A stretch of 46,483 bases of DNA from an uncultured Candidatus Nemicrothrix sp. GTDB lineage: Bacteria; Actinomycetota; Acidimicrobiia; Acidimicrobiales; Acidimicrobilacustridaceae. Of this stretch, positions 24,590 through 35,623 are shown in pieces; positions within the stretch are counted from its first letter, which is position 1; every line of letters begins with the position of its first letter. The translations under genes and the position numbers were made by a program. The stretch covers positions 1-46,483 of the forward strand of contig CAIPQK010000111.1 of assembly GCA_903867185.1 (NCBI GenBank). The letters are read 5' to 3'. The notes under the pieces were generated by a model, which was not told the origin of the DNA, did no database searches, and was given only the letters and a program-made list of their open reading frames with translations.

Positions 24590-25660
24590 GTGGGAGAAAT
24601 TGTGGTGGTCACTGGTGCCGATCTGCCGATCGGGCGGAGAGTGATTGCTGCCGCGCTCGCCGAACCCGGAGTCGACCGTGTGGTCGCTGTCGGCGCGCAA
24701 CCCTCAATTCGGAGACTCGAAACCAGTGGCGATGGCGCTGAGCTGCTCCTCGCTCCATTCGCCCTCGACGATTCGCGTTTAGTTCCGCTCGTTACGGGAG
24801 CCACCCGGGTTTTCCTCGCAGGGCCGCGATCGGGACTTGATATTGATGGCACCGGCGGATCTCACATCGACGTGATCGCCGCTCGCACGTTCCTTGCAAC
24901 GCTCACGCGTGTTGGTTCCGTGAGCACGGTTGTTGTCTTGTCTTCGGCGCTTGTTTACGGAGCGCGAGCTGATAACCCGATACCACTCACCGAACACGCA
25001 CCGGTTCGTCCGAACTCCGCGATTAATGCGTCGAACGAACGAGCAGAACTTGAGCGACTCTGCGGAACATGGGCACGTTCTCGTGGAGCGACCTGCGCAG
25101 TGGTTCGTCCTTGCATCGTGGTCGGACCAGAGAACGGCAAATGGTTAGCTCGATCCTCGTGGGCCACTGCCGGCTTGCAACTCAGCGGAGTTGTGGCTCC
25201 GGTGCAGTTTGTGCATCTTGACGATCTCACCACCGCACTCGCTGCGGTCTGCCGAGCGCGATTTGATGGACCGGTCAATGTCGCTCCCGACGGCTGGCTA
25301 AGTGTTGATGAGGTTCGCGCGCTTAAGGGCCCTACCGCTCGACTGCGCATGCGGAAACCCTTTGTGCATGTCCTTGCTCGACTCGGCGAGCACTTCGGTG
25401 TTGCCCCCGGTGACCCCGATGCACTTCTTGCCAGTTCAGGGCAATGGGTCGTGGCCAACGATCGAATTCGGTCCTTGGGATGGACGCCGACGTTCAGTAA
25501 TGAAGAGGCATATGTGGACTCCGACCGAGGCGGTGTGTGGGCTCGGCTGACCCCCCGCCATCGTCAGCATTTAGCGCTTGGAACGGTGAGTGCGTTGGTC
25601 CTGGGTGCGGCGGGAGGAGCGGCGGTTTTCGTACGCCGACACCTCAAGTCCGGTCGGTGA
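24590..25660 (+). CDS. NAD(P)-dependent epimerase-like (extended SDR fold) protein with C-terminal membrane helix
   Basis: A 356-residue protein with an SDR-type Rossmann start (VVVTGADLPIGRRVIAAAL) in which the usual GxxGxxG is reduced. It also has VVVLSSALVYG (114-124), typical of epimerases, and VRPCIVVGPEN and VQFVHLDDLTTALAA further on. The YxxxK pair expected about residue 145-150 is not visible: the region reads SAINASNERAELE. A hydrophobic helix, LGTVSALVLGAAGGAAVFV, near the C-terminus followed by RRHLKSGR would tether it to the membrane. It may bind a dinucleotide without acting as a normal dehydrogenase. The start is GTG, and the 3' end overlaps the convergent gene by 17 bases. Confidence 0.7.
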   Translation: MGEIVVVTGADLPIGRRVIAAALAEPGVDRVVAVGAQPSIRRLETSGDGAELLLAPFALDDSRLVPLVTGATRVFLAGPRSGLDIDGTGGSHIDVIAARTFLATLTRVGSVSTVVVLSSALVYGARADNPIPLTEHAPVRPNSAINASNERAELERLCGTWARSRGATCAVVRPCIVVGPENGKWLARSSWATAGLQLSGVVAPVQFVHLDDLTTALAAVCRARFDGPVNVAPDGWLSVDEVRALKGPTARLRMRKPFVHVLARLGEHFGVAPGDPDALLASSGQWVVANDRIRSLGWTPTFSNEEAYVDSDRGGVWARLTPRHRQHLALGTVSALVLGAAGGAAVFVRRHLKSGR

Positions 25661-26819
25661 GTCTCACTTTTGTGGAACTCGTTGATCCTGATCGTTTGAA
25701 TTCAACATTTACCGAGTCATTTGCAACGAAACGGCGAAGAGCAACAACGAGGTCAGAACTGTTGTGTACCGGAATTTTTCCGAGCGCAGTGATGAGGTCG
25801 CCAGACACAAGGCCGGCGATCTCGGCGGGACTGTTCGCACTTACCGATTGAATTAACGCCCCACCCCCTGCAGCATCAGTGCTGATGATTCCAAGCCACG
25901 CACGGTGCACAACGCCGGTGGCGATGATGTCATCGGCAACGTGAGTGGCCCACGCAATCGAGTTTGCGAATTCGGTGTGCGCTGTCGGAAGGGTGAGGGT
26001 TGATGGAGCAGAAATCATTGCATTCGTTCGAGATGACGCAGATGTGCGTGATGTGAGGAGTCCAATCACCGCACCGGCACGAGTACAAAGAACCGCTGAT
26101 GGTGTTGGCGGCGTTGTCTCGAGTGACGATGCGATCATGTCGTGCATCGAGGTTCCATCAGTAGCGTCGATTCGTTGTCCTGACGATTGAAAGACTGCCG
26201 ACGCCACCCACGAACGACGATCGGTTTCAATGCGGCCGATGACGTAGACAGCGTCTCCCTGTTCGATGGAACTCAGGTCGCCAACGACGGGAGTCATCAG
26301 ACCGGAAGCTTCGATGTCGATGACCCCAATATCGTCGGAAGGATCCGTCCCGACGACGGTGGCGTTAAATGACCGTCCGTCGAAGAGGGTGACCGTGATC
26401 GAACGCGCATCGTGAAGGGGATCGGAGGCGGTGATCACATGGCCATCAGGACGGATCATCAATCCGGTGGTCATGGTTACAACGGTTGGGCCGTCGATTG
26501 TGATTTGCACAACTGCCGGTGACAGTGACGCGAGCACGTCATCAGAAAGGTCGTGGGATGCGGGACCGCTTGCAACGGCGGTTCCATCGTGAGTCGCGCC
26601 ACTCGAATGGAATGTCCCAAACGCGGCAATTCCGGTTCCGATTGCAATCACCAGAAGGAGGATGAACGCCGTGAGTCCCGAGCGGGAGGAACGACGATTG
26701 CGGGCAGAGGCAAGCGAATGCGGCCCGTCAACCTCTGAAGGATGACGCCACAATCGGTCGTCTTGGGGCAGAGGCGGGATGAACCCGGCATCGTCATCCG
26801 GGTCATCGGGGAACGGCAT
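25644..26819 (-). CDS. HtrA-like membrane PDZ protein with a lost catalytic triad
   Basis: A 391-residue protein with an acidic cytosolic N-terminus, one membrane helix (about 49-68), a trypsin-like S1C domain (about 90-280) and a C-terminal PDZ domain (about 300-388). Alignment by eye to DegP/HtrA is clear: GHVITASDPLHDARSITVTL matches GYIVTNNHVV...ITVTL, and VVGTDPSDDIGVIDI matches VVGTDPxxDIAVLKI. The catalytic histidine is replaced by Asp133, and the GNSGGPL loop reads TPSAVL (239-244), so Pro240 stands where the serine should be; only Asp163 of the triad remains. It is thus probably a pseudoprotease that still binds peptides through PDZ. It is divergent from moaE. Confidence 0.8.
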   Translation of the reverse strand: MPFPDDPDDDAGFIPPLPQDDRLWRHPSEVDGPHSLASARNRRSSRSGLTAFILLLVIAIGTGIAAFGTFHSSGATHDGTAVASGPASHDLSDDVLASLSPAVVQITIDGPTVVTMTTGLMIRPDGHVITASDPLHDARSITVTLFDGRSFNATVVGTDPSDDIGVIDIEASGLMTPVVGDLSSIEQGDAVYVIGRIETDRRSWVASAVFQSSGQRIDATDGTSMHDMIASSLETTPPTPSAVLCTRAGAVIGLLTSRTSASSRTNAMISAPSTLTLPTAHTEFANSIAWATHVADDIIATGVVHRAWLGIISTDAAGGGALIQSVSANSPAEIAGLVSGDLITALGKIPVHNSSDLVVALRRFVANDSVNVEFKRSGSTSSTKVRLTDRT

Positions 26820-26880
26820 GGGGCGAATGTAGCGGTGGGCCCCGCAGAGTTGGCCGCGGCCCCCACTACGATGGGAAACC

Positions 26881-27363
26881 GTGACTCTTACACCGCCTAC
26901 CTCCGACGATTGGATCGCGTTAACCGATCAATCGCTCGATGTCGGTATTGCAACCGATTGGGTGGCACTTCCTGGCTGTGGTGCGGTGGTGGTTTTCAGC
27001 GGGTTAGTGCGCGATCACGCCGATGGCTCAAACGGAGTGACTCATATCGATTATGAAGCGTGGGCAGAACAGGTCATTCCACGCCTCACGGCCGTGGCTG
27101 ACGAAGCCCGGCGGCGCTGGCCCGATCTTGGTCGAGTCGCCCTATGGCATCGCGAAGGCCGAGTGCTGCTGAGCGAATCATCTGTTGTGGTCGCAGTCTC
27201 ATCACCTCATCGCGGAGCGGCGTTCGATGCGTGCGAGTTTGCTATCGACACGCTGAAAGAGTCAGTTCCGATCTGGAAAAAAGAATTCTTCGACGGGGGC
27301 TCCCAATGGGCGCGCTCCGCGCAGCACATCACCGATGTGAATGAACGCGGAGTTCTTGCATGA
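26881..27363 (+). CDS. moaE: Molybdopterin synthase catalytic subunit
   Basis: Large subunit of molybdopterin synthase, which puts the dithiolene sulfurs into precursor Z during molybdenum cofactor synthesis. The 160-residue protein has GAVVVFSGLVRDH (family: GA...F.G.VR), YEAW, LWHREGRVL, VAVSSPHRGAAFDACEFAID and the catalytic lysine region LKESVPIWKKE. Start is GTG at 26881 with GGGAAA upstream. No moaD or other moa genes are in the window, so the sulfur-carrier partner lies elsewhere. Its last bases overlap the next start (ATGA). Confidence 0.94.
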   Translation: MTLTPPTSDDWIALTDQSLDVGIATDWVALPGCGAVVVFSGLVRDHADGSNGVTHIDYEAWAEQVIPRLTAVADEARRRWPDLGRVALWHREGRVLLSESSVVVAVSSPHRGAAFDACEFAIDTLKESVPIWKKEFFDGGSQWARSAQHITDVNERGVLA

Positions 27364-27578
27364 GCGGCGTCGGCTTCCTTCTCATCGCGGTCATCGTGAG
27401 TCTCGTCGGGTCGATCATTGTTTGGATCCGCCACCGCAAGCCCACACATTTCATGTCGAGTGTCGACGATTTTCAACGCGAGATGGATGCCTTGAGTACG
27501 CCTCCGGTTCCTTCGACGCCACCTCGTCCAGTTCGTCCTGTACAAGATGCCGACAAGCGTCGACTCGGAGGCCGTTGA
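27360..27578 (+). CDS. Small single-pass membrane protein between moaE and mreB
   Basis: A 72-residue protein with one N-terminal membrane helix (about 4-23), a basic RHRKP stop-transfer, and a Pro-rich cytosolic tail (STPPVPSTPPRPVRPV). I do not recognise a family. It is judged real because it overlaps moaE by ATGA and ends two bases before mreB, whose ribosome-binding site lies in its last codons. Position suggests a link to MreB or the envelope, which is inference only. Confidence 0.6.
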   Translation: MSGVGFLLIAVIVSLVGSIIVWIRHRKPTHFMSSVDDFQREMDALSTPPVPSTPPRPVRPVQDADKRRLGGR

Positions 27579-27579
27579 G

Positions 27580-28575
27580 ATGGCACGCGACATTGCAATC
27601 GATCTCGGTACGGCAAACACACTCGTCTATGTGCGCGGCGAAGGCATTGTTCTCAATGAGCCCTCCGTTATCGCTCTGAATAGCCGTACCCAGGATGTCT
27701 TGGCGATGGGGCACGAGGCCTGGCAGATGATCGGACGTACTCCGAGCTACATCGTCGCCGTCCGGCCGCTTCGTAAGGGCGCCATTACCGATTTCGAAGT
27801 CACCCAGCGCATGATTCGACTTCTACTCCAGCGAGTGGGCGTCAACCGCTTCAACCGACCTCGAGTGGTTATTTGCGTGCCGTCTGCCATTACTGCTGTT
27901 GAGCAGCGCGCAGTAACAGAAGCCGCCCGTCGCGCCGGCGCTGCCGAAGCGCATCTGATCGAACAGCCCATGGCTGCGGCAATCGGATCGGGTCTTCCTA
28001 TTAATGAGCCACTTGGCAACATGGTCATCGACATCGGTGGTGGCACATCCGAAGTTGCGCTGATTTCTCTTGGCGGAGTGGTCGCTCTTGAAGCTGTTCG
28101 TGTCGGGAGTTTCGATATCGATGCGGCAATCCAGACCTACATTCGTCGTGAATACGGAATCGCTGTCGGTGAACGTACGGCTGAAGAAATCAAAGTCACG
28201 ATCGGTTCGGCCTGGCCGACTGAAAACGAATACGCCGCAGAGGTCCGCGGTCGTGAGCTTATGAGTGGTCTTCCGAAGACCGTGGTGCTCACCGCCGAAG
28301 AAGTTCGCGAAGCGATCGACGAACCAGTGTCTGCCATGGTCGATGCAGTGATTGCATGTCTTGGCCAAGCACCGCCTGAACTGGCTCAGGATCTCATCGA
28401 ACAGGGTATTTATTTGGTCGGTGGCGGCGGCATGCTGCGCGGTCTCGATCTGCGCATTGAGTCCGAAACCGAAGTTCCCGTGCACCTTGTAGAGGCACCG
28501 CTCGAGTCTGTTGTGCTCGGAGCAGGCCATTGCGTCGAGTCATTCGATGCACTCAAGGTCATGTTTATGGACTGA
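27580..28575 (+). CDS. mreB: Rod-shape-determining actin homologue MreB
   Basis: Filament-forming ATPase that guides cell-wall synthesis along the cylinder. The 331-residue protein has the actin-fold ATP motifs DLGTANTLVY, GAITDFEVT, VVICVPSAIT, EQPMAAAIGSGLP, DIGGGTSEVALIS and LVGGGGMLRGLD. The ATG at 27580 has GGAGG eight bases upstream; an in-frame start at 27547 would overlap the small gene before it. mreC, mreD and rodA are not adjacent, which is unusual for a canonical mre locus. The 3' end overlaps the convergent HEAT-repeat gene by 11 bases. Confidence 0.95.
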   Translation: MARDIAIDLGTANTLVYVRGEGIVLNEPSVIALNSRTQDVLAMGHEAWQMIGRTPSYIVAVRPLRKGAITDFEVTQRMIRLLLQRVGVNRFNRPRVVICVPSAITAVEQRAVTEAARRAGAAEAHLIEQPMAAAIGSGLPINEPLGNMVIDIGGGTSEVALISLGGVVALEAVRVGSFDIDAAIQTYIRREYGIAVGERTAEEIKVTIGSAWPTENEYAAEVRGRELMSGLPKTVVLTAEEVREAIDEPVSAMVDAVIACLGQAPPELAQDLIEQGIYLVGGGGMLRGLDLRIESETEVPVHLVEAPLESVVLGAGHCVESFDALKVMFMD

Positions 28576-29200
28576 GATCCTCGGCTGCTTGTCTGACTTG
28601 CCAATCGCGATCGGTTGTTGCTTGTTCGATCGCGGCATCGACTTCTGGTCCATCAAATGGGGCAAGTGCAATCACTGCCCGTCGGCGTACCGTCGCCTTA
28701 TCGGAAGTGGCCGAAAGGATTGCGGGAAGTCCCGACAGATCTCCCAGAGCACCGAGTGCGGCGACTGCCGATTCGCGACACAGCGCGTCGTCATGAGTCG
28801 TTGCGATTTCGCTCAGCCGTGCGATCGTTGCCTCCGAGGCGGGAGGACGTTCGCCACAGGCCCACGCAGCTATCTCCACGACGGAAATGTCGTCATCATC
28901 GAGAAGTAGCGCGATGGCAGAAGCGACCTCGGCGTCGATTGGGTCTCCGACCAAACCGTTCCATGATGTTGATTCGGTGCACGCGCGACGCCGCATGATG
29001 GGGTCGGGGTCAGTTGTGGCGCCGAGGAGATCTTCTTTTGTCAGGGCATCGAGCCGGTGTAAGGCCCCGAGCGCGGTGGCTCGGACGTTCGCATCGACAT
29101 CTCGAAGTAATTCCCGCGCAGTAGAGATGTCGCCGTCGTAGCCCGCGATGGCAGCGCGACGTTGACGGGCGACGGTTTCGTTGAGTTGACGACCTGTCAT
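28565..29200 (-). CDS. HEAT-repeat protein
   Basis: A 211-residue all-helical protein built of about five to six repeats of roughly 31 residues. Recurrent D-x-x-V-R-x-x-A-x-x-A-L-like pieces are visible (DANVRATALGAL, DPIMRRRACTES, DDISVVEIAAWACG, DALCRESAVAALGALGD, KATVRRRAVIALAPF, DWQVRQAAEDL). Such proteins are scaffolds or, in some cases, phycobilin-lyase-like; nothing here points to a lyase. It starts two bases beyond the stop of the small membrane-protein gene at 29202-29384, so both are probably one transcript. Confidence 0.8.
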   Translation of the reverse strand: MTGRQLNETVARQRRAAIAGYDGDISTARELLRDVDANVRATALGALHRLDALTKEDLLGATTDPDPIMRRRACTESTSWNGLVGDPIDAEVASAIALLLDDDDISVVEIAAWACGERPPASEATIARLSEIATTHDDALCRESAVAALGALGDLSGLPAILSATSDKATVRRRAVIALAPFDGPEVDAAIEQATTDRDWQVRQAAEDLSP

Positions 29201-29384: not shown

Positions 29385-29499
29385 TCCTCTTATTCTCGCA
29401 CCCCATCGACGGGCGCGCCGGATTATGGCGCTGGGCATGGCAGGCTGAGCCCCTCAATTGGGCCAATCTGCCGCACTCTGCGGCCGGCGATGGAGTCTC

Positions 29500-30624
29500 G
29501 TGGTCGACCACAACGAAGAAGATCTCGAGTCAGTCGTCGAGACCGAGGCGCCACACTGGAGTCGCCGTCGGCGTTGGGCCACCTCAATTGGTTTCCTGCT
29601 CGCCGTGGTTGTCATCACACTCGGGTTGGTTATTCGAATTCCGTATTACGTGTTGTCGCCGGGTTCATCTCGTCCGACCGAATCACTGATTTCGGTGGAA
29701 GGTGCATCGACCTATGAAACAAACGGCGACGTGGATTTCCTCACAGTGTCACTCCGGCAAGCAACACCAATCGAAGCGCTAGCAGCGTGGGTGAATCCTG
29801 ATCTTGATCTGACGCCAGAGGAAAACATTCTTGGAAAGCAGTCACCCGATCAAAATCGCGATCTCAACCTACGGATGATGGCCGACTCAAAAGATGCTGC
29901 TCAGTATCAGGCGCTGAAACGACTTGGTTATGCGATCGAATCAAACGGAACAGGAGCGGTAGTTGCGTCAGTCGTTGACGAAGGACCGTCTTCAGGTCTC
30001 CTCGTTTCTGGCGATGTCATTACCCGGGTGAATGGACAGCCAATCTCTTTCAGCCAGGAATTGATCACCATTGTCAGTTCAAGCAGTCCTGGTTCGACAC
30101 TTTCAATGTCTGTCGAGCCGTTTGATTCTTCTGTCGCCAATGCGCTCCCAGCTCGCGAAGTGCAAGTGGTGCTCGGTGCGCGTGACAACGATGCCTCAAA
30201 AGGCTTTCTTGGGGTCTCTACGTTTACCCGCGACCTTTCGTTCAAGTTCCCGGTGCAGATCTCAATTGATTCAGGTCAAGTGGGTGGACCTTCTGCGGGT
30301 TTGGCCTTCACATTAGGGATCCTTGATGTGATGACCGAGGGGAGTCTTACGGGCGGTCTTTCGGTTTCTGTCACAGGGACGATGGCGCTCGATGGAACGG
30401 TTGGGCCGATTGGAGGAATCCATCAGAAGGTGATGGCTTCGCGTCGTGCTGGCGTCGATTTGATGCTGGTTCCATCAAGTGAAATCGACGAAGCGCGAAA
30501 GTACGCAGGCACGTTGAGGATTGAGCCGGTGGATTCTCTTGATCAGGCGCTTGCGGTTCTCACGACGGTAGGCGGCGGAAATTCGGTTCTCCCGCCGGTC
30601 GGCACCTCGGCCAACGCCAACTGA
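29500..30624 (+). CDS. Membrane-anchored PDZ-Lon (S16) protease, YlbL type
   Basis: A 374-residue protein: an N-terminal membrane helix (about 28-48), a PDZ domain (about 145-225) and a C-terminal Lon-type protease domain. The Ser-Lys dyad is intact: Ser265 in GGPSAGLAF and Lys310 in GIHQKVMAS. It resembles B. subtilis YlbL and mycobacterial Rv3194c, whose gene lies beside a UPF0182 gene as it nearly does here (recalled synteny). GTG at 29500 has GGAG five bases before it. Substrates are unknown; the neighbouring DivIVA-like protein is a candidate by position only. Confidence 0.9.
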   Translation: MVDHNEEDLESVVETEAPHWSRRRRWATSIGFLLAVVVITLGLVIRIPYYVLSPGSSRPTESLISVEGASTYETNGDVDFLTVSLRQATPIEALAAWVNPDLDLTPEENILGKQSPDQNRDLNLRMMADSKDAAQYQALKRLGYAIESNGTGAVVASVVDEGPSSGLLVSGDVITRVNGQPISFSQELITIVSSSSPGSTLSMSVEPFDSSVANALPAREVQVVLGARDNDASKGFLGVSTFTRDLSFKFPVQISIDSGQVGGPSAGLAFTLGILDVMTEGSLTGGLSVSVTGTMALDGTVGPIGGIHQKVMASRRAGVDLMLVPSSEIDEARKYAGTLRIEPVDSLDQALAVLTTVGGGNSVLPPVGTSANAN

Positions 30625-30676: not shown

Positions 30677-32530
30677 ATGGCAGCCGACTCGTCCGGGCCG
30701 ATCGATCCCGACCGCATTCTCGATAAAACCTTCGCGACCGTAAAGAAGGGCGTTGACCCTGTTGAGGTTCAGCGTTACCTCCTCAAGATCTCGAACCAAC
30801 TGAAGGCCTCGCAGACGCGCATAGCGGAACTCGAGCGTCAGGTTGAGCAGTCGCGTCGTCAAAGCGCTGAACACGATCCCATCGATCCATCGAATCTCAC
30901 CAAGTTGCTCGGCGAGGAGACCACGCGGGTTCTCGATGCAGCCCAGTCCGCCGCAGCCGAGATCAGGGCCAAGGCCGAAGAAAATGTCGCCCGCCTCCTT
31001 CGTGACTCTCGTGAAGAAACCATTCGTCTTCGGGAAGAAACCGATGCGTTAGTCGCTCGGCGTCGAGAAGAAGCCGAGCAAATTGCCGAAGAGATCCGTG
31101 AGAACGCTGCAGCCCAGCGCGAAAGTGCTGAAGCTGAAGCTGCAGCAATTATTGAAGCGAGCAAGCAGCAAGGACGCGAGATGGTCCTTGAGGCACAGCA
31201 GGTTCGCCAGCGGATGCTTGACGATCTCGCTCGACGGCGTCAGGCACTTCGCGAGCAGATCGAGCAGTTGCAAGCCGGGCGCGATCGCATTTCCGCCGCC
31301 TACGACATCGTGCGCGAAACGCTTGCGGTCGCGACCGAAGAACTCGATGTTGCGTTACCCGAAGCTCGACTCGCCGCCGAAGTTGCGTCGTTGCAGATTG
31401 TCGACGCTGAACCTGAAGCAACGATTACCCCGATTGTCACTGCCGAGGATTTGGGCGTTCCAGTCATCGATGTTTCGCCTGCGGATCGACCTCGCAATGT
31501 TGAAACCCCAGCCGAGCCGAAGTCCTCTGCGCCCAAACTGACGGTCGTTCCTCCGGTGCAGGAACCAAAAACTGAGAAATCCAGCGATTCGACCTCTGAG
31601 AACGCTGAACCAGAGCAACCCGTCGACTCGACTCCAGTTGCGGAAGATCCGCGCGAAGGGCGGCACTCGTCGTCAGTCCGAGTCGTTCGCACCTCAAGCG
31701 GTAAAGCTGCCGATGTTTTTGCTCGTCTTCGCCAAGAAGGTGAAGACGAAGTCGCTCAGACGGGCGATAGCCCTGAAGACGAAATGACGGCACCGAGCGT
31801 TGACAATGCACTCTCCGAGACAAAGATTGGCGCGACTGACGCTGTTGGCGAAGAGATTGAAGCCGACTCCGATGCCGATCAAGCCTTCATCGTTACTCGT
31901 AATGCAGCAGTTGCGGCGATCGAAAGTGCTCTAGCGCGACGGATCAAACGAGAGCTTTCAGACGAACAGAACGAGTTGCTTTCAACGCTTCGATCGGTCA
32001 AAGGAAACGTGACCGCAATCGCGTTTCTTCCCACTCCTGAATCACAACTTGAGCGTTATGAAGACATTGCGCTTCCTGCTCTTGCCGATGCGGCGGAAGC
32101 GGGCGCTTCGATTGCTCCAGCTAAGGGACGAGGGACATCTCGTGCATCGGTGGGTGACCTGGCTGCCGATCTGGCTTCAGCCATCGTTGGACCGCTCCGC
32201 GATCGTCTCGAACGAGCGGTCTCGGAATCGGCGGGCGATCGCGATGATCTTGCCCAGCGCATTCGGTCGACCTTCCGTGAGTGGAAGAGCCAACGAGTCG
32301 ATGAGTCAGTGACATTTGGGGTTCTCTCGGCGTGCAATCGAGGAATCCTCGATCGTCTGCCCAAGGCATCGCAGGTGCGCTGGGTGGTTGCCGCTGGCGA
32401 TGCTCCTTCCCCCGATTGCGAAGACAATGCGCTTGGTGGTGCTACCGAGCGGGGTGCGGCGTTTCCAACAGGCCATAACGCCCCGCCACTGCACCCCGGA
32501 TGCCACTGCGTCGTACTTCCTGCACTCTGA
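30677..32530 (+). CDS. DivIVA-like coiled-coil protein fused to a phage Mu gpF-like C-terminal domain
   Basis: A 617-residue cytosolic protein in three parts. Residues 8-40 (DPDRILDKTFATVKKGVDPVEV) look like the membrane-targeting start of DivIVA/Wag31. Residues ~40-240 are a long Glu/Arg/Ala-rich coiled coil. Residues ~240-400 are acidic, Pro/Ser-rich and probably disordered. The end (about 405-617) is folded: helices around RRIKRELSDEQNELL and FREWKSQR, then VRWVVAAGDAPSPDCEDN (567-584) and FPTGHNAPPLHPGCHC (596-611). The cluster of Cys581, His600, His606, Cys609, His610 and Cys611 matches the closing C/H motif of phage minor-head proteins of the Mu gpF/SPP1 gp7 group. No other phage genes are near. 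ATG at 30677 was chosen over a TTG three codons before. Role unknown; polar or envelope scaffolding is plausible. Confidence 0.7.
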   Translation: MAADSSGPIDPDRILDKTFATVKKGVDPVEVQRYLLKISNQLKASQTRIAELERQVEQSRRQSAEHDPIDPSNLTKLLGEETTRVLDAAQSAAAEIRAKAEENVARLLRDSREETIRLREETDALVARRREEAEQIAEEIRENAAAQRESAEAEAAAIIEASKQQGREMVLEAQQVRQRMLDDLARRRQALREQIEQLQAGRDRISAAYDIVRETLAVATEELDVALPEARLAAEVASLQIVDAEPEATITPIVTAEDLGVPVIDVSPADRPRNVETPAEPKSSAPKLTVVPPVQEPKTEKSSDSTSENAEPEQPVDSTPVAEDPREGRHSSSVRVVRTSSGKAADVFARLRQEGEDEVAQTGDSPEDEMTAPSVDNALSETKIGATDAVGEEIEADSDADQAFIVTRNAAVAAIESALARRIKRELSDEQNELLSTLRSVKGNVTAIAFLPTPESQLERYEDIALPALADAAEAGASIAPAKGRGTSRASVGDLAADLASAIVGPLRDRLERAVSESAGDRDDLAQRIRSTFREWKSQRVDESVTFGVLSACNRGILDRLPKASQVRWVVAAGDAPSPDCEDNALGGATERGAAFPTGHNAPPLHPGCHCVVLPAL

Positions 32531-32578: not shown

Positions 32579-35500
32579 ATGCGTCTCCCCACTGACATGC
32601 CCCAGCGCCGTCGCTTCTCCCGAGGCCGTATTGCTCTCATCGTCATCGTGGGGGTGGTGTTCGCTCTATTCATGTCGCTCCGAGGCCTTGCTGGTTTCTG
32701 GACCGACTGGATGTGGTTCGACTCGCTGGGACTCGGCTCGGTATTCACCGGAATTCTTGGGGCCAAGATCGCGTTAGGCGCAATCTTCACGGTGGCCTTC
32801 TTTGTGATGGTGATCGTGAATCTGGTGATTGCCGATCGCATCGCTCCGAAAGTTCGCGAGACCGGGCCAGAGGATGATTTGCTCGATCGATATCACGCAA
32901 CGATTGGTCGTCGCACAAAGACCGTTCGTGTCGTGGTTTCGTTCGTACTCGCTTTAGTCGCCGGACTAGGTATGTCCGGCGAATGGAAGCAGTGGATCCT
33001 TTTCCGCAACGGCGGAAGCTTCGGCGTTAACGATCAAACGTTTAACACCGATGTTGGTTTCTATGTCTTCAAACTTCCGTTCTACAGCTCTGTCACAAAC
33101 TGGCTTTTTGCTTCCGGCATCATCATTCTCATCGTCACGTTGGTGGCCCATTACCTGAACGGTGGCATTCGCTTTCAGACACAGGGTCAGCGCGTAACCC
33201 CTCAGGTCAAAGCGCATATTTCTGTAGTACTAGGTCTCCTCGCACTTGTGAAAGCGGCCGATTATTGGTTGCAGCGCTACGCGCTGACCTACTCGACTCG
33301 GGGCACAGTCGATGGTGCGACCTACACCGACGTAAAGGCGCAACTTCCAGTTATCTATTTGTTGCTTTTCATCGCGTTGTTGTCATTCGGACTTTTTATC
33401 GCCAACATTTGGCGCCGCGGTTGGACGCTCCCTGTGGTTGCGGTTGGCCTCTGGGCTTTGGTGTCAGTAATTGCGGGTGTCGGTTATCCAGCATTCATTC
33501 AGAGGTTTGTTGTCGAACCCGAGGAATCGACGCGCGAGACGCCATATATCCAGCACAACATCGATTCCACTCGCACCGCTATGGGTTTGAGCAGTGTTGA
33601 TACTCAGCCGTTCCTTTTCAATCAAGACAAAGCGCTTGCAACGCAGAGCGTCAACGACAATCCCGGGACAATTCGCAATATTCGACTTCTCGATCCAACC
33701 ATCGTCGAACCGACTTATCAGCGGTTGCAGAGCCAGTACTCACAATTGCGTTTCAACGAACTCGATGTCGATCGTTACCCGATCAAAACTCCATCTGGAG
33801 ATATCGCCAATACGCAGGTAATTGTTGGAACTCGAGATCTCAACGTTGGCCAGATCCCTCAGAACTCATGGGAAGGCCAGCATCTCGCCTATACCCACGG
33901 TTATGGCGTTGCGATGGCTCCGGCAAACGCAACAACGACGCAGGGACGCCCTGATTTTCTCATTCGAAACGTCCCCCAGATCGTCGATACATCACGAATT
34001 TCGGCCGATGTTTCCCAGCCGCAGCTGTATTACGGCGAGAACGTTTCGGGTTACGCAATCACGAATGCGTCTCGCGAGGAAATCGACTACGTCCAGGCCG
34101 ATGGGCAGACAAAGTTCACGCAGTACTCCGGTTCGGGCGGTGTGAAACTTGACTCCTTCATTAAGAAGGCGGCCTACGGGCTGAAGTTCTCCGACTGGAA
34201 CTTGGTCGTCTCCAACTTCCTTAACTCTGATTCTCGAATTGTTTATCAACGTGACATACGCCAGCGCATTGAGGCTGTTGCGCCATTTATGCAGTTCGAT
34301 TCCGATCCCTATCCCGTCATTCAGGACGGTCGTGTTGTCTACATCTTCGATGGCTACACAACGACGGATCGCTATCCGAACGCACAGCGAGCTGATTCGA
34401 GTGGCCTTCCCGCAGGAAGCGACCTTGGCGGGAAGCGATTTAATTACATTCGCAATTCAGTAAAGGGTGTTGTCGACACCTACGACGGCACGGTGAAGCT
34501 CTACATCGTCGATCCCTCTGACCCGATCGTGAATGCCTACCAGAAGGCGTTTCCAGCACTATTCGCTGGAGTCGATGAGATGCCAGCGACGCTCAAGGCA
34601 CATTGGCGCTATCCGGAAGATCTCTTCCGCACCCAAACCAATATGTTCGGGCGGTATCACATCAGCGACCCGAAGGCTTTTTACGAGAAGACCTCAAGTT
34701 GGTCAGTTGCGCAAGATCCTGGCTCAACTGTCAACGGTTCTGCCGCAATTGTGACCGCGAATCAAACGTTAAACGGCACCACCGTGTTGCGAACAAAAGA
34801 AGCTCGTATTAGTCCGGTCTATTCATTGATTCGTCTGCCGGGCCAAGTAACGGAATCATTCGTGATGTTGCGTCCCTTCGTTCCTTATTCGGAAGATGAC
34901 TCGAAGAAGACACTTACGTCGTTCATGGTGGCGAATAGCGATCCCGCGCAGTATGGCAAGTTGACGGTCTATGAAATGCCTTCGGGTTTCAATATCGACG
35001 GCCCGGCAATCGTCAATGCCAACATTCTTTCTGACCCTGAAGTAAGTAAATACACAACCCTGTTGAATCAGCAGGGCTCGCGCACACAATTCGGCAGCCT
35101 CATGCTGACGCCGGTCAACAACTCAATTATTTACATTCGTCCGTTGTACGTCTCGTCGGATAACAACACGCAGATTCCTGAACTCAAGCAGGTCATTGCG
35201 GTATTTGGTGGGCAGGTTGTCATGAAGCCCACGCTTCGTGAGGCACTCCAGACCTTGTTCCCGGGCGCAAACCCCCAGACGTTCGAGTCAAGCACCGTTC
35301 TGCAAGATGACACCGGAAGTAACGGTTCGAGTGGCGGTGGCGCAAGTTCCTCGAGTTCTACGACCACCACAACGATTCCCTCAACTGGCAATGCCACGAA
35401 GGATCAGCTCATTGATCAGGCGGCGAAAGCATTGACAGATGCCGATGCTGCATTGCGCAACGGCGATCTTGCTGGTTATCAAGCGAAGGTCAGGGAAGCG

Positions 35501-35623
35501 CAGAACTTGATCAATCAAGCTCAAGCGCTTCCGAATGGAACGACGTCGAGTTCCGGTGCGTCGGGTTCCTCCGGTTCGTCTAGTACGACAACAACAGTGA
35601 TCCGGTCCGGTACGCCAGCCTGA
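32579..35623 (+). CDS. UPF0182 family large membrane protein
   Basis: A 1014-residue membrane protein of UPF0182 (DUF1624-unrelated; actinobacterial Rv0064/Rv3193c type). The first ~310 residues hold about seven membrane helices. The next ~600 residues are a large extracytoplasmic domain with family motifs such as WTDWMWFDSLG, YIQHNIDSTRTAMGL, RDLNVGQIPQNSWEGQHLAY (given in part), YIFDGYTTTDRYP and HWRYPEDLFRTQTNMFGRYH. The C-terminus is Ser/Thr-rich (SSSSSTTTTTIPST) around a short helix with DQAAKALTDADAALRNGD. Biochemical function is not established. The stop codon directly abuts that of the convergent tetR gene (TGATCA). Confidence 0.93.
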   Translation: MRLPTDMPQRRRFSRGRIALIVIVGVVFALFMSLRGLAGFWTDWMWFDSLGLGSVFTGILGAKIALGAIFTVAFFVMVIVNLVIADRIAPKVRETGPEDDLLDRYHATIGRRTKTVRVVVSFVLALVAGLGMSGEWKQWILFRNGGSFGVNDQTFNTDVGFYVFKLPFYSSVTNWLFASGIIILIVTLVAHYLNGGIRFQTQGQRVTPQVKAHISVVLGLLALVKAADYWLQRYALTYSTRGTVDGATYTDVKAQLPVIYLLLFIALLSFGLFIANIWRRGWTLPVVAVGLWALVSVIAGVGYPAFIQRFVVEPEESTRETPYIQHNIDSTRTAMGLSSVDTQPFLFNQDKALATQSVNDNPGTIRNIRLLDPTIVEPTYQRLQSQYSQLRFNELDVDRYPIKTPSGDIANTQVIVGTRDLNVGQIPQNSWEGQHLAYTHGYGVAMAPANATTTQGRPDFLIRNVPQIVDTSRISADVSQPQLYYGENVSGYAITNASREEIDYVQADGQTKFTQYSGSGGVKLDSFIKKAAYGLKFSDWNLVVSNFLNSDSRIVYQRDIRQRIEAVAPFMQFDSDPYPVIQDGRVVYIFDGYTTTDRYPNAQRADSSGLPAGSDLGGKRFNYIRNSVKGVVDTYDGTVKLYIVDPSDPIVNAYQKAFPALFAGVDEMPATLKAHWRYPEDLFRTQTNMFGRYHISDPKAFYEKTSSWSVAQDPGSTVNGSAAIVTANQTLNGTTVLRTKEARISPVYSLIRLPGQVTESFVMLRPFVPYSEDDSKKTLTSFMVANSDPAQYGKLTVYEMPSGFNIDGPAIVNANILSDPEVSKYTTLLNQQGSRTQFGSLMLTPVNNSIIYIRPLYVSSDNNTQIPELKQVIAVFGGQVVMKPTLREALQTLFPGANPQTFESSTVLQDDTGSNGSSGGGASSSSSTTTTTIPSTGNATKDQLIDQAAKALTDADAALRNGDLAGYQAKVREAQNLINQAQALPNGTTSSSGASGSSGSSSTTTTVIRSGTPA

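Follow-up and report, generated by a model that had tools for sequence, protein, structure and literature searches.

A DivIVA-type coiled-coil protein ending in a diverged phage MuF domain, encoded before UPF0182 in Acidimicrobiia

Phage head parts that have been captured by bacteria are usually viewed as toxins, decoys or prophage debris. DivIVA-like proteins act in cell division and form dimeric coils, and a division function is described for DivIVA and GpsB proteins alike (PMC9858780). The phage MuF or minor head proteins (PF04233, TIGR01641) include Mu gpF and SPP1 gp7, the latter of which is described as binding strongly to the portal and supporting the start of infection (PMC6316719). 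MuF domains also occur in polymorphic toxins, and one survey placed 87% of the MuF genes on bacterial chromosomes near portal or terminase genes (PMC5576092).

Here we describe a gene in which these two families meet. It lies in a window of 46,483 nucleotides, by which we mean the whole stretch of DNA that was analysed, from an uncultured Candidatus Nemicrothrix sp. of the class Acidimicrobiia. Its product has the N-terminal head and coil of DivIVA, Wag31 and GpsB (PF05103) and matches the structures 2WUJ and 6LFA and those of GpsB; unlike these proteins it ends in a folded MuF domain of ~220 residues, and its head motif reads KGVDPVEVQ. With the phage MuF and minor head proteins, and with the portals of phrog_2662, it shares a helical core, a beta tail and an H-x2-C-x-C ending, whereas it differs from them in being fused to DivIVA, in being cellular and apparently inherited mostly vertically, in scoring below the family cut-offs and in having no portal or terminase gene among ten neighbours. 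The last point also sets it apart from the surveyed chromosomal MuF genes (ten ORFs were considered). As in the polymorphic toxins the MuF domain is part of a multidomain protein, however in the toxins as described a toxin domain follows it and here it is the C-terminal end (PMC5576092); no toxin families were seen in the fusion protein in Pfam, NCBIfam or PHROGs. Open-access literature on DivIVA with MuF, minor capsid, UPF0182 or domestication made no mention of a DivIVA-MuF fusion among the matches listed, subscription papers and preprints being outside the scope of that search.

Architecture of the fusion protein and identity of its C-terminal domain

The gene is a single frame of 617 residues without a stop at 30677-32530 on the forward strand, as the preliminary description of the locus had it, and its parts are as follows.

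30677..32530, + strand: DivIVA-MuF fusion gene, 617 aa (stop-free frame, recurring as a single frame in relatives)
30698..30874, + strand: DivIVA-type head, residues 8-66 (PF05103 over cut-off; family profile against PDB 2WUJ, E 4.7e-12)
30887..31387, + strand: long coiled-coil helix, residues 71-237 (full-length AlphaFold2 model)
31388..31852, + strand: acidic linker, residues 238-392, mostly disordered apart from one short predicted helix, 343-360 (low pLDDT; charge)
31853..32356, + strand: MuF helical core, residues 393-560 (AlphaFold2 models; retained where the tail is lost)
32357..32527, + strand: C-terminal tail of the MuF domain, residues 561-617, which has beta strands and the Cys/His cluster (models, alignment)
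32408..32419, + strand: putative metal site, first half, SPDC, residues 578-581 (CxxC in 67/95 aligned relatives)
32492..32509, + strand: putative metal site, second half, HPGCHC, residues 606-611 (C609 and C611 in 95/95, H606 in 93/95)

The alignment of close relatives begins at the same methionine, and a sequencing error that joined two genes is excluded because both halves share one frame in many genomes. The base composition was said to match that of the neighbours and does so, with a GC of 0.585 for the gene and 0.53-0.60 for its neighbours; the GC3 of the MuF part is 0.50 as against 0.54-0.67 in neighbouring genes, a small difference. Promoter and terminator scans of the locus were both uninformative (no promoter-like site; 9 terminator-like sites, 7.5 expected).

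The start of the protein is DivIVA-like, PF05103 matching residues 11-130 with 34.6 bits against a cut-off of 28 (E 2.2e-8); in a genome-wide search with the DivIVA profile the fusion protein scored 39.5 bits, and a second DivIVA gene of the same genome lies elsewhere, on contig C24. A profile of 55 full-length relatives matched the PDB entries of DivIVA (2WUJ, E 4.7e-12), Wag31 (6LFA, 7.4e-9) and several GpsB structures, and the NCBIfam GpsB model matched the fusion protein weakly (E 2.4e-4, below the family cut-off). Compared with RGYDxxEVD the head motif retains G, D, E and V, with V replacing Y and Q replacing the last D, and in several relatives from outside the class it reads RGYDRDEV. 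In the full-length AlphaFold2 model (55 sequences, whole-protein pLDDT 79.1) there are helices at residues 11-16, 28-64 and 71-237, so that the head is followed by a long helix as in DivIVA-like domains. A coiled coil is thus predicted where the earlier account had placed one, at ~170 residues and not the ~200 given there. The linker is indeed acidic, with a net charge of -21 over residues 241-397, and is mostly disordered in the model from 238 to 392; residues 393-617 form a confident domain with ten-residue pLDDT means of 82 to 98 from residue 401. Modelled alone from ten sequences the C-terminal domain reached a mean pLDDT of 89.5 and a pTM of 0.86.

The folded end had been likened to Mu gpF, and profile, predicted fold and relatives agree on MuF homology of residues 398-617; the structure prediction and profile check that had been proposed beforehand recovered phage minor-head and portal relatives. 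As far as profiles can tell, the domain is a diverged homologue of MuF (Mu gpF/SPP1 gp7) rather than a textbook member, since its scores fall below the Pfam and TIGRFAM cut-offs: the isolated domain scored 15.5 bits with PF04233 (cut-off 29.6) and 17.7 bits with TIGR01641 (cut-off 39.65), models which matched eight (best E 0.0045) and nine (best E 4.3e-5) of ten relatives at E <= 1. In PHROGs the domain matched phrog_2662, annotated as portal protein, at positions 574-707 of 717 with an E value of 4.5e-12, and all ten relatives did so at E <= 1 (best 3.9e-13). When the profile of 95 cellular domains was compared with that of seven phage proteins the E value was 4.9e-13, and eight reversed and column-shuffled controls gave 0.22 to 0.95; this phage set, which does not include SPP1 gp7, is not independent, since six of its members had been picked up with the domain of the window as the query. 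Single phage proteins compared with the cellular profile gave values from 6.6e-14 (Strzyga) to 2.1e-6, and Mu gpF alone was not significant (E 0.067). The evidence from PHROGs and Foldseek is independent of the phage comparator set.

A Foldseek search of viral models (BFVD) with the model of the domain returned 36 matches at E <= 1e-3, the best of which was a phage portal protein (E 2.9e-6, TM 0.75); the named matches were portal, head morphogenesis, capsid and capsid-maturation proteins and a protein whose name refers to a Zeta toxin domain (TM 0.77), and the full-length model gave a similar list with 41 matches at E <= 1e-3. When the domain was compared with phages by tblastn 64 records were found at E values up to 10 (best 2e-3), and the best 30 of these comprised 19 annotated as head, capsid, MuF or portal proteins, 8 as hypothetical proteins and 3 as helicases or primases. 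Gene context was inspected for six of these phage records: one match is itself a portal gene, three immediately follow one, a fifth comes four genes after one and the sixth has no portal gene within the stretch shown. A divergent relative used as the tblastn query had zero matches in phages, and a viral scan with a phage portal C-terminus found two loci. In the PDB the sequence profile of the MuF domain met weak unrelated chains only, and Foldseek with VIA-align returned mainly helical bundles, with no solved relative of the MuF domain standing out. A chance Cys/His motif is rejected on the PHROG match, the profile-profile E value and its controls. The domain is not filed in the Phage_Mu_F family because its score lies below the curated cut-off and its gene lacks the phage context; it is a domesticated homologue of the MuF superfamily.

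The Cys/His signature at the end of the protein holds in part. In the 95 tail-bearing sequences, Cys609 and Cys611 are invariant and His606 (93/95) and Cys581 (84/95) are well conserved, whereas His600 (46/95) and His610 (7/95), which had been counted in the signature, are not; these 95 come from 111 domain sequences, 16 having been dropped as truncated, weak or near-identical, so the counts exclude tail-less members. Position 578, a Ser in the window, is Cys in 78 of the 95 relatives; all 95 have one or both cysteines of the CxxC pair (578-581) and 67 have both, the window having Ser-Cys. Together these residues could form a zinc site. The Cys/His end is, on the evidence of the alignments, not an essential part of the MuF domain, because the match stops before it, with the helical core retained, in 18 of 139 class genomes (not counting one match truncated where its contig ends); for eight of the 18 the fetched frame itself ends there.

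Two species of the window's own genus have the DivIVA part alone between PDZ-Lon and UPF0182 (184 and 228 residues). At loci L206, L219, L022 and L025 DivIVA-only genes precede UPF0182 in the usual place of the fusion gene, which suggests either that the MuF half has been lost or that this is an older state without MuF. From the tail-less and DivIVA-only relatives the DivIVA part appears to be the most lasting, followed by the helical core and then the tail.

In the two closer pairs of sequences that were compared, the linker had a dN of 0.28-0.32, as against 0.085 for the helical core and 0.077-0.099 for the tail, where dS was 0.85-3.3 and partly saturated; in two more distant pairs the dN of these parts was 0.25-0.39, with dS mostly saturated or not computable. 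The MuF parts therefore look to be under purifying selection in the two closer pairs, about as strong as that on the coil.

Distribution, inheritance and gene neighbourhood

A survey of the fusion across the class, which the preliminary description had proposed, found the MuF domain in 139 of 198 class genomes and 91 of 103 genera, and in 115 of the 137 good-quality class genomes, all with a 95-row profile; a ten-row profile recovered 111 of the 198. For the order the ten-row profile gave 159 of 198 genomes and 115 of 134 genera. In a sample of 396 genomes from the phylum 57 have the domain, 19 of them outside the class (95-row profile, E 1e-4), and the ten-row profile gave 53 (E 1e-3). A first search for relatives had matched in 30 of 37 genomes, in three of which (G001, G008, G011) the sole match was the other DivIVA gene. 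The 18 named loci of relatives are mostly from unclassified actinobacteria, with one each from Acidimicrobiales, Acidimicrobiia and Microthrixaceae; three labels of Bifidobacterium breve and one of Acidobacteria among the named loci are taken to be mislabelled bins. The domain is absent from 59 class genomes, and among 20 of these that were listed eleven belong to one genus with genomes of ~1 Mb, which resembles Actinomarina in this.

In a tree which left out Mu gpF, eight of the nine families with three or more rows can each be split off at a single branch (five are starred, and f3 has 40% support), and the remaining family f1 needs two changes; this is the pattern that long, mostly vertical inheritance would give. 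Cells and phages are separated by two changes on the free tree, and a tree constrained to keep the 95 cellular rows in one group had a higher likelihood (p-AU 0.679), hence a single origin of the cellular MuF domains is neither rejected nor established by the tree. The earlier idea of a captured phage domain survives in that a MuF homologue sits in a cellular gene, however the capture appears ancient and mostly vertically inherited, and not local. A recent prophage is rejected, with zero phage families among the ten neighbours and zero relatives in viral contigs (ten-row profile).

The genes around the fusion gene that matter here are given below.

27547-28575: MreB gene, upstream (Pfam scan)
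29458..30624, + strand: PDZ-Lon (S16) protease gene, upstream (PF05362 and PF13180)
32579..35623, + strand: UPF0182 membrane protein gene, downstream (PF03699, E 2.4e-259)

None of the ten neighbouring ORFs matched a phage family (Pfam, E 1e-5), in particular there is no portal or terminase, which agrees with what had been said of the region. In addition to MreB/Mbl, the stretch just upstream at 25644-29200 encodes MoaE, a HEAT-repeat protein and an HtrA-type PDZ protease, and the HEAT-repeat gene is found beside PDZ-Lon again in several relatives.

The place of the fusion gene between PDZ-Lon and UPF0182 is conserved in the class, where UPF0182 is downstream on the same strand in 94/95 genomes, PDZ-Lon is upstream in 40/42 and a DivIVA head is detected in 68/72 by a short strict profile. 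Outside the class the corresponding numbers are 18/19, 1/17 and 13/17, and overall UPF0182 lies 3' of the fusion gene in 112 of 114 genomes; all these counts are of fetched loci that extend far enough to show the feature in question, one row per genome with named duplicates excluded, and are not a random sample. The four genomes outside the class in which the head was missed are two from family f123, one with a fragment (L121) that has a head-bearing frame just upstream, and one from f133 whose MuF-only protein lies away from UPF0182 and may be a prophage gene. A MuF-type protein at L235:2948-3808 has neither a DivIVA head nor an adjoining UPF0182 and is possibly a prophage gene. Two loci from beyond the class, L109 and L113, have a histidine kinase and an unknown protein of ~400-435 residues upstream in place of PDZ-Lon.

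One class genome (G239, contigs C19 and C23; loci L228 and L229) has two UPF0182 genes, each after its own fusion gene. Both copies consist of a tail-less DivIVA-MuF gene, a PDZ-Lon gene and UPF0182, the whole set seemingly having been duplicated.

UPF0182 does not need the MuF domain, since it persists without it both in the class and in other actinobacteria. It was found in 103 of 149 genomes elsewhere in the phylum and in 16 of 20 checked class genomes from among the 59 without the domain. In 18 chosen regions 5' of UPF0182, from genomes outside the class without a match to the ten-row profile, there was no MuF domain, one DivIVA-only gene and eight PDZ-Lon genes; two class regions fetched alongside do contain the fusion gene, overlooked by that profile. 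At eight loci of the small-genome genus PDZ-Lon directly adjoins UPF0182.

Possible roles of the fusion protein

Gene context and literature speak for a scaffold that acts in the envelope or in division and uses its MuF domain to hold UPF0182 or a neighbour, and a function in the envelope shared with its neighbours, as had been suggested for the locus, is what we infer. In the form that we prefer, and which seems to us evenly poised, the protein would be a membrane scaffold whose MuF domain docks on a partner, most likely UPF0182, for wall growth or division. A phage MuF domain would have been fused long ago to a DivIVA-type coiled-coil protein, in an ancestor of the Acidimicrobiia that some other classes of actinobacteria probably share. 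The DivIVA head and coil would dimerise and lie against the cytoplasmic side of the membrane, probably where it is curved, as at the pole or septum, and the linker would give the C-terminal domain its reach. There the helical core may dock on its membrane partner as the phage relative gp7 docks on the oligomeric portal, an act that would cluster or position UPF0182 in wall growth or division, whilst the Cys/His tail would be auxiliary, probably stabilised by zinc, and lost in several lineages.

Two described proteins are of interest for this scaffold, Rv3193c of Mycobacterium tuberculosis, presumably its UPF0182 protein, and YlbL of Bacillus, presumably a PDZ-Lon protease. Rv3193c is reported to interact genetically with Rv0954, a member of the divisome, being among 14 membrane-protein hits, six of them division genes, that were depleted when Rv0954 was mutated (PMC8093794), and YlbL is described as helping to clear a division inhibitor (PMC6051672). 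Against the scaffold are the persistence of UPF0182 in genomes without the MuF domain, including actinobacteria in which Lon and UPF0182 adjoin, the two f123 genomes outside the class without a DivIVA head by the strict profile, and the window's own head, which deviates from RGYDxxEVD. The MuF domain is furthermore dispensable in some lineages, as these keep the DivIVA part alone, and the position before UPF0182 could reflect an old operon rather than contact.

Of the other explanations the one that survives best, rather unlikely as we judge it, is a GpsB- or SepIVA-like division regulator, whose MuF domain binds a wall synthase, FtsZ, MreB or PDZ-Lon and for which UPF0182 is an old operon neighbour. 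It draws on the division role of DivIVA and GpsB proteins as described (PMC9858780), the weak NCBIfam GpsB match (E 2.4e-4, below cut-off), the MreB gene at 27547-28575 and the finding of UPF0182 without the MuF domain, and it has against it UPF0182 downstream in 112/114, the duplicated UPF0182 with a fusion gene of its own, and a PDZ-Lon gene upstream in only 1/17 genomes outside the class.

The preferred scaffold can be taken further, to a re-used portal-docking surface by which the MuF domain would hold an oligomeric UPF0182 on the DivIVA scaffold, as a cellular analogue of the portal/minor-head pair; we regard this extension as unlikely.

Quite improbable is a DNA tether, with chromosomal DNA bound by the MuF domain and fastened to the membrane or pole through the DivIVA part. 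A paper on SPP1 gp7 reportedly calls gp7 a DNA-binding protein in its title, but the cellular MuF domains are acidic (median net charge -8 and pI 5.2 over 95 sequences, -6 in the window); charge alone is not decisive here because the seven phage comparators, used at the length retrieved and not trimmed to the domain, include two strongly acidic proteins and five that are not. An anti-phage decoy, which would disrupt head assembly by binding the portals of infecting phages, would fit the homology to a portal-docking family, however a wide vertical spread and a fixed place beside UPF0182 are unlike a defence gene and make it very improbable. That the MuF likeness is convergence of a helical bundle and a Cys/His knot, or a decaying scrap of prophage, is scarcely credible: the single-model Pfam and TIGRFAM scores lie under the curated cut-offs and Mu gpF alone gave 0.067, but the profile-profile E value of 4.9e-13 with its poor controls, the best single phage E value of 6.6e-14, the fold matches to viral models and the purifying selection all speak against it.

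DivIVA-MuF looks like a housekeeping part, kept in most of the class and present outside it. In the fetched loci the fusion gene is almost never found without UPF0182, for which it is a predicted cytoplasmic partner gene, and it may thus offer a way into the study of this membrane protein, which is large and conserved and is annotated as uncharacterised.
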